From an uncultured Hyphomicrobiales bacterium (GTDB lineage Bacteria > Pseudomonadota > Alphaproteobacteria > Rhizobiales > Beijerinckiaceae): a DNA stretch of 53,812 nucleotides. This document shows, one piece after another, positions 50,374 to 53,812 of the stretch; within the stretch, counting starts at the first letter, position 1; the number at the start of each line of letters is the position of its first letter. The stretch covers positions 1-53,812 of the forward strand of contig CAIKAR010000132.1 in assembly GCA_903825465.1 (NCBI GenBank), read 5' to 3'. A program made the position numbers and the translations under genes. Below the pieces are notes generated by a model. It was not told where the DNA came from and searched no databases. It saw only the letters and a program-made list of their open reading frames with translations.

Positions 50374-50934
50374 TCACATGCCTTCCGCGCCCCGCGTGAT
50401 CGCCGCGATTCCGGTGCGCGAGAATTCCACAAGGCCCACGGGCCGCATCAACTCGACGAAATCATCGATCTTCTCGGGCGCGCCGGTCAACTCGAAAATG
50501 AAGCTTTCAATGGTGGCGTCGATCGTCTTGGCCCGGAAGGCCTCCGCGAGCCGCAGCGCTTCCATGCGGTTGTCGCCCTTGCCGCGCACTTTCACCATGG
50601 CGAGTTCGCGTTCGATGGAGCGCTTTTGAACGGTGAGGTCGGTGACCTTGTGAACAGGCACAATCCGCTCAAGCTGATGCGTGATTTGCTCGATGGCCTC
50701 GGGCGGCCCGGAGGTGACGATGGTGATGCGCGAGAGATGCTCGCCATGCGCCACTTCGGCGACGGTGAGGCTCTCGATATTGTAGCCGCGGCCGGAAAAC
50801 AGGCCAACAACGCGCGCGAGCACGCCGGGCTCGTTGTCGACCAGCGCGGAAAGCGTGTGCCGCTCGCTGTTGGATTTACCGAGCGCCGAGGAATAGGGCG
50901 ACGGCGGGAGGGGGGCGGTGACGGGAGCGTTCAT
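50374..50934 (-). CDS. ilvN: Acetolactate synthase small (regulatory) subunit
   Basis: A 186-residue protein (IlvN/IlvH). The N-terminal ACT domain (about 28-100) begins RHTLSALVDNEPGVLARVVG and has GYNIESLTVAEV, the valine-binding core; the second domain has RELAMVKVRG and RPVGLVEFSRTGIAAITRG. It confers feedback inhibition by valine. ATG at 50934. It is separated from ilvB by 57 bp on the same strand, so the two form one operon under the ilvB attenuator. Confidence 0.95.
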   Translation of the reverse strand: MNAPVTAPLPPSPYSSALGKSNSERHTLSALVDNEPGVLARVVGLFSGRGYNIESLTVAEVAHGEHLSRITIVTSGPPEAIEQITHQLERIVPVHKVTDLTVQKRSIERELAMVKVRGKGDNRMEALRLAEAFRAKTIDATIESFIFELTGAPEKIDDFVELMRPVGLVEFSRTGIAAITRGAEGM

Positions 50935-50991
50935 GGGGTCTGCTTTCTGTGATTTGGCGGAAAACACGGAGACGGCGCCGAGACAAGCGCG

Positions 50992-52764
50992 TCACACCAG
51001 CATTTTGCCCTTCTCGTCGATCACCCCGCCAAGGTCGAGCCCCGCGTCGTCGCCGAGTTCGGCGAGCAGCATGTCGTTGTGGGCCTTGCCCGACGGAATC
51101 ATCGGGAAGCAGTTTTCCTCGGCTTCGACCACGCAGTCGAAGATCACCAGGCCCGGATGGTCGATCATTTCTTTGATCGCGCGGTCGAGATCCTTCGGGT
51201 CGGAGCAGCGGATTCCACGCGCGCCATAGGCTTCGGCGAGCTTGACGAAATCGGGCAGCGAATCCGTGTAGCTCTCGGCGTAGCGGCCGCCGTGCAGCAG
51301 TTCCTGCCACTGCCGCACCATGCCCATGTACTGGTTGTTGAGGATGAAAACCTTCACCGGCGCGCGGTACTGTTTGGCTGTCGACAGCTCCTGAATGTTC
51401 ATCAATATCGAGGCGTCGCCGGCGATGTCGATGACGAGCGCGTCCGGATGCGCCATCTGCGCGCCGATGGCGGCGGGCAGGCCGTAGCCCATTGTCCCGA
51501 GCCCGCCCGAGGTCATCCAGCGGTTGGGCTCGTCGAAGTGGAAATACTGCGCCGCCCACATCTGATGCTGGCCGACTTCGGTCGTGATGTAGCAGTCCTT
51601 GCCGCGCGTCGCCTCGTAGAGGCGCTGGATCGCGTGCTGCGGCTTGATCTTCGTCTTCGAGGGCCGGTAGGCGAGCGATTTCCGCGCCCGCCAGGTCTCG
51701 ATCTGCTTCCACCATTGCGCCAGCGCCGTCTTGTCGACGGCCGCCTTCGCGGCCTTCCATTGCGCGATCATGTCGGTCAGCACATTGCCGCAATCGCCGA
51801 CGATGGCCAGATCGACGCGCACATTCTTGTTGATCGACGAGGGGTCGATGTCGATGTGGATCTTCTTCGAAAACGGCGCGAAGGCGTCGAGCCGGCCGGT
51901 GATGCGGTCGTCGAAGCGGGCGCCGACGCAGATCATCAGATCGCAATCGTGCATGGCGTGGTTGGCTTCGTAGGTGCCGTGCATGCCCAGCATCCCGAGC
52001 CAGTTCGCGCCGGACGCCGGATAGGCGCCGAGGCCCATCAGCGTCGAGGTGATGGGAAAGCCCGTCAGCGCGACAAGCTCGCGGATCAGTTCGGACGCCT
52101 TGGGGCCGGAATTGATGATTCCGCCGCCGGTGTAGAAGATCGGCTTCTTCGCCACCGCCATCATGGCCACAGCTTCGGCGACGCGGCCCGCGTCGCCCTT
52201 GACGCGGGGCTTGTAGGTCTTGTGGCTCGCGATTTCGGGCTTCTCGTACGCGCCGGTCGCGAACTGCACGTCCTTCGGCATATCGATGACGACCGGACCG
52301 GGGCGTCCGCTCGCCGCGACATAGAAGGCCTCGTGCAGAACGCGCGGAAGATCCTCGATGTTGCGCACGAGATAGTTGTGCTTCGTGCAATGGCGCGTGA
52401 TGCCGACCGTGTCGCATTCCTGGAACGCGTCCGAACCGATCAGATGGGTCGGCACCTGGCCCGTGATGCAGACCAGCGGGATCGAATCCATCAGCGCGTC
52501 GGTGAGGCCGGTGACGGCGTTGGTCGCGCCGGGGCCCGACGTGACCAGCAGCACGCCGACCTTGCCGGTGGAGCGCGCGTAGCCCTCCGCCGCGTGCGCC
52601 GCGCCGCCTTCCTGCCGGACGAGGATGTGGCGAACGTGGTTTTGCTGGAAAATGGCGTCGTAGATCGGCAGCACCGCGCCGCCGGGATAGCCGAACACCG
52701 TGTCGACGCCCTGGTCCTTCAGGGCCTCGACAATCATTTCCGCGCCGGTCATCTGCTTCGACAT
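50992..52764 (-). CDS. ilvB: Acetolactate synthase large (catalytic) subunit
   Basis: A 590-residue thiamine-diphosphate enzyme. The N-terminal domain has GVDTVFGYPGGAVLPIYDAI and the catalytic Glu in RQEGGAAHAAEGYARSTGKV; the ThDP-binding GDASILMNIQELSTAKQYRA is near the C-terminus with NNQYMGMVRQW. It makes acetolactate from pyruvate, the committed step. ATG at 52764 with GGAGACC eight bases upstream. The 200 bp before the start hold a promoter, leader peptide and attenuator (listed separately), so transcription is controlled by charged branched-chain tRNAs. Confidence 0.96.
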   Translation of the reverse strand: MSKQMTGAEMIVEALKDQGVDTVFGYPGGAVLPIYDAIFQQNHVRHILVRQEGGAAHAAEGYARSTGKVGVLLVTSGPGATNAVTGLTDALMDSIPLVCITGQVPTHLIGSDAFQECDTVGITRHCTKHNYLVRNIEDLPRVLHEAFYVAASGRPGPVVIDMPKDVQFATGAYEKPEIASHKTYKPRVKGDAGRVAEAVAMMAVAKKPIFYTGGGIINSGPKASELIRELVALTGFPITSTLMGLGAYPASGANWLGMLGMHGTYEANHAMHDCDLMICVGARFDDRITGRLDAFAPFSKKIHIDIDPSSINKNVRVDLAIVGDCGNVLTDMIAQWKAAKAAVDKTALAQWWKQIETWRARKSLAYRPSKTKIKPQHAIQRLYEATRGKDCYITTEVGQHQMWAAQYFHFDEPNRWMTSGGLGTMGYGLPAAIGAQMAHPDALVIDIAGDASILMNIQELSTAKQYRAPVKVFILNNQYMGMVRQWQELLHGGRYAESYTDSLPDFVKLAEAYGARGIRCSDPKDLDRAIKEMIDHPGLVIFDCVVEAEENCFPMIPSGKAHNDMLLAELGDDAGLDLGGVIDEKGKMLV

Positions 52765-52807
52765 CGTCGGTCTCCGTGGGTTACGCGTCACATCAGGAAT
52801 TTGGACA

Positions 52808-52832
52808 ATAAAAAAGGCCCACTCGGGGGCCT
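52808..52832 (-). terminator. Attenuator terminator of the ilvB leader
   Basis: On the minus strand GGCCC, loop CCGAGT, GGGCC and then TTTTTTATT. It ends about 44 bases before the ilvB ATG and follows the leader peptide by 31 bases. The 5' arm overlaps CCCCG (52828-52824), which can instead pair with CGGGG at 52871-52867 inside the leader coding region. Confidence 0.85.
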
Positions 52833-52862
52833 GGGTCAGCGCCAATGGCGGGCAAACGAGGT

Positions 52863-52916
52863 CTATCCCCGTCCCGTCGCTGGCGCTGTCGATACTACGA
52901 TAAGGTTCGCGCGCAT
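52863..52916 (-). CDS. ilvB leader peptide (MRANLIVVSTAPATGRG)
   Basis: A 17-codon reading frame with ATG at 52916, TAG at 52863-52865 and GGAG seven bases upstream. Codons 5-8 read Leu-Ile-Val-Val, the three products of the pathway in a row, and end 12 bases before a segment that pairs downstream (CAGCGCCA 52888-52881 with TGGCGCTG 52844-52837). Ribosome stalling on these codons when charged tRNAs run low would favour the antiterminator. Too short for ordinary gene prediction. Confidence 0.85.
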   Translation of the reverse strand: MRANLIVVSTAPATGRG

Positions 52917-52941
52917 GCGCCACTCCATTGGTCTAGCGATG

Positions 52942-52970
52942 TTTCTAGCCGAGCGCGCGCACGGGGTCAA
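52942..52970 (-). promoter_or_regulatory. Sigma70-like promoter of the ilvBN leader
   Basis: On the minus strand TTGACC (52970-52965), a 17-base spacer and TAGAAA (52947-52942). Transcription would start near 52935, about 20 bases before the leader ATG. The -35 lies six bases after the stop of the Sel1-repeat gene. Confidence 0.65.
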
Positions 52971-52975
52971 GCGCG

Positions 52976-53812
52976 TCACGTGCTCGTCGTCTTGCGTTTG
53001 GGCGGCGCTTTGAGCGCTGGCGTCGGCGCCGGCGGATAGAGATCGCGCTTTGGCTCCATGCGGGCGGTCGGGGCGTCCCAGCCGCCGGGCGGCGACGCGA
53101 CTTCGTTGGCGGCCTTGTCGGTGGTTTTCGGATGGAACGCGGCGAGGAAAGCCTTGGCGTCGGCCATTTGCTTGCTGTCGAGGCGGGCACCGACATCATC
53201 CTGCTTCTTGGCGGCGTCGGTGTCGCCCTGCGCCGCGGCGATGCCAAACCAGGCCCAGGACAGGCTCAGACTCTGTTCAACGCCAAGGCCGCGGGCGTAA
53301 AGGATCGCGAGATTGTACTGACTGTCCCGCACGCCGTAATCGGACGCCTTGCGGAACCACGACGAGGCCGCCGCGTAGTCGGGCTTGCCGTCCACGCCTT
53401 CGGCGCTCAACACGGCGATGTTGTGCATGGCGCGTATGTTGCCGGCGTCGGCGGCCTTCATGTACCAGCTCCGAGCCTTCGCCAAATCGCGGTCGGTCCC
53501 CGTTCCACGCTCGTACAACGAACCAAGTCGATAGGCCGCCGGCGCTAGATTCTGGCTGGCCGCCTTTGTGAACCACTCGATGGCGCGCCGCGGATCGCGC
53601 GCGACGTTGCGGCCGTCGGCGTAGCGGGCGCCGAGTTCGTATTGCGCAGATGCGCTGCCCGTGTCGGCAGCGGCCTGCAATCCGGACGACGGGGCCGCGT
53701 TTTGGGTGTTTGGCGATCCATTGATGGAACCGACGGGCGAGGGGTCGCTGGCGATCGCGTTGCCGGCGCTCGCGCCAGAGCTCGGCACGACCGGATTTTC
53801 AAGCGACGCGCC
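52976..53812 (-). CDS. Sel1-repeat protein, C-terminal part (PodJ-like; partial)
   Basis: At least 278 residues; the frame is open at the right edge of the window, so the N-terminus is missing. About four Sel1-like repeats follow one another: SAQYELGARYADGRNVARDP, AAYRLGSLYERGTGTDRDLA, RAMHNIAVLSAEGVDGKPDY and DSQYNLAILYARGLGVEQSL. A Pro-rich, low-complexity tail (YPPAPTPALKAPPKRK) ends it. In Hyphomicrobiales large polarity factors such as PodJ carry C-terminal Sel1 repeats before a peptidoglycan-binding domain; here there is no such final domain. The Ser/Pro-rich upstream part fits a long linker. The ilvB promoter begins beside its stop. Confidence 0.7.
   Translation of the reverse strand, partial: GASLENPVVPSSGASAGNAIASDPSPVGSINGSPNTQNAAPSSGLQAAADTGSASAQYELGARYADGRNVARDPRRAIEWFTKAASQNLAPAAYRLGSLYERGTGTDRDLAKARSWYMKAADAGNIRAMHNIAVLSAEGVDGKPDYAAASSWFRKASDYGVRDSQYNLAILYARGLGVEQSLSLSWAWFGIAAAQGDTDAAKKQDDVGARLDSKQMADAKAFLAAFHPKTTDKAANEVASPPGGWDAPTARMEPKRDLYPPAPTPALKAPPKRKTTST

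Follow-up and report, generated by a model that had tools for sequence, protein, structure and literature searches.

A predicted ribosome-mediated attenuator upstream of ilvBN, conserved across an alphaproteobacterial genus and in many loci beyond it

We analysed a stretch of 53,812 nucleotides, hereafter the window, from an uncultured bacterium of the Beijerinckiaceae, and we propose that positions 52970-52810 of its minus strand very probably form a ribosome-mediated transcription attenuator of ilvBN. An ilvBN attenuator with a leader peptide had been suggested in an initial annotation, and the suggestion is borne out by the anatomy of the locus, by conservation in 30/30 loci of the genus and by covariation in the leader hairpin. 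In the proposed mechanism, when charged tRNAs for Leu, Ile and Val are plentiful, the ribosome would read the leader up to its stop codon; with the ribosome at this position the terminator would form and transcription would end ahead of ilvB. When these charged tRNAs are scarce, the ribosome would stall on the control codons and cover CAGCGCCA; the freed TGGCGCTG would then hold the 5' arm of the terminator (CAGGCC), leading to read-through into ilvBN.

The elements of the locus are given in Table 1. The promoter motif, the GGAG, the 17-codon leader, the run of control codons, the stem and the T-run are all present on the minus strand where the initial annotation had placed them. With ilvB and ilvN scoring above their NCBIfam cut-offs, the products of the operon match the residues that the control codons specify, and ilvC, which lies further on past ilvBN, also exceeds its cut-off. 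On the other side, a gene for a Sel1-repeat protein stops at 52976, so that the promoter motif sits just beyond its end. We also observed that the ilvB frame is open upstream, through the attenuator, as far as a GTG at 52923 (643 aa; 50992-52923, minus strand); a gene caller could therefore choose a premature ilvB start, and the leader would be overlooked.

Table 1. Elements of the putative ilvBN attenuator and the adjoining genes in the window
Feature	Position	Strand	Details	Basis
Promoter motif TTGACC-N17-TAGAAA	52942..52970	-	TTGACC 52970-52965, 17 nt, TAGAAA 52947-52942	read in sequence
Leader ribosome binding site GGAG	52926-52923	-		sequence
Leader peptide gene, MRANLIVVSTAPATGRG + TAG	52863..52916	-	ATG at 52916, 17 codons, TAG 52865-52863	
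Control codons CTT ATC GTA GTA (Leu-Ile-Val-Val)	52904-52893	-	last one, Val8, at 52895-52893	sequence
Arm 1, CAGCGCCA	52888-52881	-	5' outer arm of leader hairpin	covariation, permutation test
Inner leader hairpin, CGGGACGGGG + its 3' partner	52849..52876	-	stop codon in loop	helices 2/3, fold
CGGGG / CCCCG	52871-52867 / 52828-52824	-	pair proposed in the initial annotation	sequence
Arm 2, TGGCGCTG	52844-52837	-	3' outer arm of leader hairpin; candidate holder of terminator 5' arm when freed	folding
Terminator 5' arm segment CAGGCC	52833-52828	-		sequence
Intrinsic terminator AGGCCC-CCGAGT-GGGCCT + T6	52810..52832	-	stem 52832-52815, T-run 52815-52810	sequence, terminator scan
ilvB, acetolactate synthase large subunit	50992..52764	-	ATG 52764-52762	NF006581, 1122.9 bits, cut-off 974
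ilvN, acetolactate synthase small subunit	50374..50967	-		NF008864, 221.5 bits, cut-off 119

We then compared the regions upstream of ilvB, matches to which were present in 61/61 genomes of the genus and the order. The set of 110 loci comprised the 30 best loci out of 37 genomes of the genus, the window's own included, and the best 80 of 591 loci from a scan of named genomes; one of these, L080, was left out because its upstream sequence is too short, so that 109 loci were judged. We looked upstream of ilvB for a leader of 9-25 codons containing an Ile/Leu/Val run and followed by a hairpin and a T-run. In this comparison of orthologous regions, which had been named as a check by the initial annotation, leader and terminator proved to be kept: the arrangement was found in 90/109 loci, that is in 30/30 of the genus and in 60/79 of the others, the latter coming from the best 80 of 591 and including L071, which is probably from the same genome as L105, and L033, the match of which looks spurious. 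By comparison, the count was 22/3272 for random windows taken from these loci and 17/1070 for dinucleotide-shuffled upstream regions. All 30 leaders of the genus carry an Ile/Leu/Val run, and in each of these loci a terminator is located 43-62 nt past the leader stop; that of the window lies at 52832-52810, as annotated. We also derived a model, R1, from the alignment of the genus; searched against the non-genus loci, with L071 left out, it found 60/79 at E<=0.01, on the strand of ilvB and upstream of it.

The arrangement was absent from 19/79 non-genus loci. Some of these are near misses: L020, L022 and L028 have a leader and a hairpin with a broken T-run, and L047 has a leader and a terminator and lacks a run of three Ile/Leu/Val codons. 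In others, such as L024 (Hyphomicrobium), L027, L030 and L036 (Parvibaculum), inspection by eye revealed no such leader upstream of ilvB, and judging from the Hyphomicrobium and Parvibaculum loci some branches of the group seem to lack the attenuator or to have lost it. In a separate case, L064, in the region about 90-150 nt ahead of ilvB, the leader stop codon abuts the 3' half of the terminator and its T-run. The hairpin and the 5' arm of the terminator are missing, owing either to a deletion in nature or to faulty assembly.

Concerning the promoter, TTGAC-N17..19-TA was observed 54-73 nt ahead of the leader start in 28/30 genus loci, a count made without a null, and was not found in L095 and L096. 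The window promoter itself was not reported by a sigma-70 consensus scan at the threshold of that scan.

The annotated role of Leu-Ile-Val-Val as control codons is supported by the alignment of the 30 genus sequences (A2), in which the last GTA codon is invariant (30/30). In L083, L088 and L107 this invariant GTA is followed by one extra Ile or Leu codon. The end of the peptide, TGRG, was considered as a functional peptide motif and rejected: in four leaders (L100, L101, L110 and L111) Ala-Pro is followed directly by the stop codon, behind which AC(A/G)GGAC(A/G)GG nevertheless persists. Since 4/30 leaders end before TGRG while the RNA segment beyond is kept, we read this peptide end as a reflection of the conserved leader hairpin RNA. 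The ilvB match of L100 (G025:C229:6080-7849) contains one in-frame TAG, perhaps a sequencing or assembly error.

The leader hairpin was examined on the same alignment. Overall, 95.5% of its 468 cells are paired, and 6/16 pairs have changed on both sides (29 cells, versus 8.7 in shuffles), whereas pairing in the slid controls amounts to 35-47%. The outer helix is paired in 97.8% of cells, with both-side changes in 2/6 pairs, and the inner helices 2 and 3 are paired in 94.7% and 93.5% of cells, respectively. We also carried out a cross-species duplex test with the 29 distinct rows, in which the arms of a given sequence pair better with each other than with arms from another sequence; for the outer as for the inner arms, 0/5000 permutations were as good. 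The covariation and the duplex test together argue that the leader hairpin is conserved as an RNA structure. Arm 1 starts 6 nt past the invariant GTA codon in 30/30 genus sequences, and this spacing is fixed because A2 is gapless between the codon and the outer arm of the hairpin. Assuming a mask of 15 nt, stalling on the last Val codon would place the ribosome over 52895-52881, which includes the whole of arm 1. A hairpin between CAGCGCCA and TGGCGCTG that a stalled ribosome could mask, as had been annotated, agrees with both the covariation and the fixed 6-nt spacing, and masking of arm 1 as the trigger of the switch is, on these alignments, well supported.

The step that follows the masking is more delicate. 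When the locus is fitted to the classical scheme, arm 1 is CAGCGCCA, arm 2 is TGGCGCTG, arm 3 is CAGGCCC and arm 4 is GGGCCT. In the stalled prefix, with arm 1 masked, the 2:3 pairing has a probability of 0.507, versus 0 without a ribosome. Against this pairing, a ribosome placed on the stop codon also gives it 0.46 in the prefix, and 0.001 in the full RNA. We detected no coevolution in the genus between arm 2 and the 5' arm of the terminator (2726/5000 permutations as good), and the two arms of the terminator, coarsely cut, fail the same test (1021/5000).

The initial annotation had assigned the antiterminator differently: in the same attenuator, the G-rich leader segment CGGGACGGGG would pair with the 5' arm and loop of the terminator, through CGGGG and CCCCG. 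This assignment, which we consider possible though doubtful, finds some favour among the relatives. Pairings of this type exhibit a weak coevolution in the genus (-12.80 kcal/mol for own arms versus -12.20 for mixed arms, 74/5000 permutations as good), in a test that ignores kinship and on a segment that the leader hairpin constrains as well. They exceed a probability of 0.3 in the stalled prefixes of 10/30 genus loci, the window not being among them, and of 8/60 other loci, and they reach 0.99 in L090, L099 and L102. For the window sequence itself, however, the pairing is unsupported: its probability in the stalled prefix is 0.011 and, when forced, it is 2.5 kcal/mol worse than the best fold, because CGGGG folds with a local partner just past the stop codon when CAGCGCCA is masked. 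In our modelling, the exact antiterminator pairing is the least certain step of the mechanism, and we retain TGGCGCTG as the candidate partner of the terminator 5' arm.

Folding with and without the mask had also been named as a check. In the full RNA of the window, masking of arm 1 drops the terminator from 0.98 to 0.55. With the stalled mask, full-RNA equilibrium folds across the loci leave the terminator above 0.5 in 30/30 of the genus, the window being at 0.54 in this series. As controls we used the thr, trp, his, leu, ilvG and ilvB attenuators from E. coli, pheA being left out as its stretch was without a leader, and in 6/6 of them the terminator is kept at 0.86-0.99. We therefore rejected full-RNA equilibrium folding with a mask as a test of switching, since it reveals no switch even in these known attenuators.

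In the prefix test, the transcript is folded up to a point ahead of the 3' arm of the terminator, with the ribosome stalled, at the stop codon, or absent (naked). The difference between stalled and stop states is at least 0.27 in 5/6 E. coli controls, his being the exception; for ilvG even the stalled value is surpassed by the naked one. In the genus, this difference is at least 0.27 in 8/30 loci, as calculated from rounded values, and the window is not among them, with 0.73 stalled and 0.68 at stop. The stalled value exceeds the stop value in 24/30 genus and 46/60 other loci, and the naked value in 19/30 and 38/60, respectively, counts that ignore kinship.

Such values for the window could be taken to mean that there is no switch at all and that a constitutive terminator merely lies behind a leader frame due to chance. 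Indeed, the window taken alone is less striking, with values near those of shuffles: the stability of its fold is moderate (-52.1 kcal/mol, z -2.6, 3/200 shuffles as good), one terminator-like site was found versus 0.9 expected in such a region, and the prefix folds display no clear switch. It is the conservation that makes the attenuator more than chance. Every genus locus retains the leader, the control codons, the spacing and the hairpin, and conservation extends far outside the genus, and the full-RNA folds miss the switch in the E. coli attenuators too, so that we give the absence of a switch very little credence and keep the ribosome-mediated attenuator as our reading.

At the gathering score the window has no Rfam match. 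In a lax search, its positions 52921-52799 match the full model (1-122) of RF02502, Atu_C8, with an E-value of 0.0059 (301 bases) and a score of 25 bits, which falls short of the gathering cut-off of 50. Among 20 chosen loci we observed 8 RF02502 matches over the cut-off, all of them immediately ahead of ilvB, and a lax search of 10 loci at E<=0.1 gave 4 with a match and 6 without. In the 61 genomes, a match at E<=1 is present in 46; it is over the cut-off in 5, none of them from the genus. Matches at E<=0.01 number 25, in 24 of the 61 genomes, and a comparison by eye placed 25/25 of them 29-161 nt upstream of an ilvB match and on the same strand. Between E 0.01 and 1, many matches are at sites away from ilvB, and the lax search also matches 5/14 control genomes, none over the cut-off. 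We dismissed as chance a second match in the genome of the window (G000:C22:20424-20546, E 0.04), since a long reading frame encloses it.

The RF02502 alignments cover the leader, the hairpin and the terminator. Given this span and the position of all E<=0.01 matches upstream of ilvB, the family Atu_C8, filed in Rfam as a Rhizobiales sRNA, appears to be the ilv attenuator RNA. The literature searched on Atu_C8/RF02502 and on the Agrobacterium ilvI attenuator or sRNA, including passages of PMC5913331 and PMC2573895, showed no statement equating Atu_C8 with an ilv attenuator. Examples of RF02502 matches coinciding with the RNA from ilvB leader to terminator are L043:2320-2440 and L059:2301-2420. 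In one relative, G059, ilvB is present twice, and both copies are preceded at short distance by an over-cut-off match (G059:C1559:78136-78257 and G059:C1049:7949-8069). Elsewhere, L043:6440-6568 and L084:1099-1152 are over-cut-off Rfam matches to ar35 (sRNA) and terC RNA (cis-regulatory). That the region would be primarily the gene of a trans-acting small RNA of the Atu_C8 type, with ilvB adjacent only incidentally, is suggested by the Rfam class and by the match of the window to the whole model, and we judge it highly improbable, the cis role being primary because 25/25 matches at E<=0.01 in the 61 genomes lie upstream of ilvB on its strand and because leader, hairpin and terminator all fall within the model.

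A secondary role in trans is a different matter. In Sinorhizobium meliloti, rnTrpL, the attenuator RNA of the trp leader, is reported to have a function in trans (a reference title and passages of PMC10117765). By analogy, the terminated leader RNA (Atu_C8 type) might accumulate when amino acids are plentiful and act in trans as a regulatory sRNA; we regard this as a long shot. If true, the attenuator would couple Leu/Ile/Val status to other genes. As a trans-acting product, the peptide would be a weaker candidate than the RNA, since its conserved end is missing from 4/30 leaders, in which the RNA segment behind the stop codon nevertheless persists.

This analysis documents an amino-acid switch, as predicted here, in an alphaproteobacterial genus, with 30 aligned relatives on which alternative pairings can be tested. 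Relabelling Atu_C8 as an ilvB leader would correct automatic annotation in Rhizobiales. No new mechanism is involved, and what deserves attention is the question of the antiterminator and the Rfam label.

Attenuators of this kind are already known, and the window is a real, widely conserved and ordinary example. An alphaproteobacterial "ilvB leader peptide" is mentioned among elements already described in a passage of PMC1273637 citing Vitreschak 2004, and the "ilvIH cis regulatory" element of S. meliloti, in a passage of PMC2573895, is also from Vitreschak 2004; these ilvB/ilvIH leaders, described before 2005, are of the same kind as ours. Atu_C8 shares with the window its place upstream of ilvB and its full-length architecture, and differs in its Rfam class of sRNA gene and in a cut-off that the window does not reach. 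In E. coli, the ilvXGMEDA and ilvBN attenuators also possess branched-chain control codons, a leader and a terminator, whereas their leader peptides have 32 residues and their predicted stalled-minus-stop differences are 0.27 and 0.32, versus 0.05 for the window. Caulobacter crescentus belongs to another bacterial family, and the Caulobacteraceae loci in our set carry other leaders (VRTYTIVLIERPSSV in L041, VRNILVLVGRP in L063). Its ilvBN operon is, according to a passage of PMC4117421 citing Tarleton 1994, attenuated through a leader in which Ile and Val codons stand in tandem; as in the window, an alphaproteobacterial ilvBN thus follows a leader with tandem branched-chain codons and an intrinsic terminator, the formation of which, in Caulobacter, is blocked by the paused ribosome (PMC4117421, same passage).
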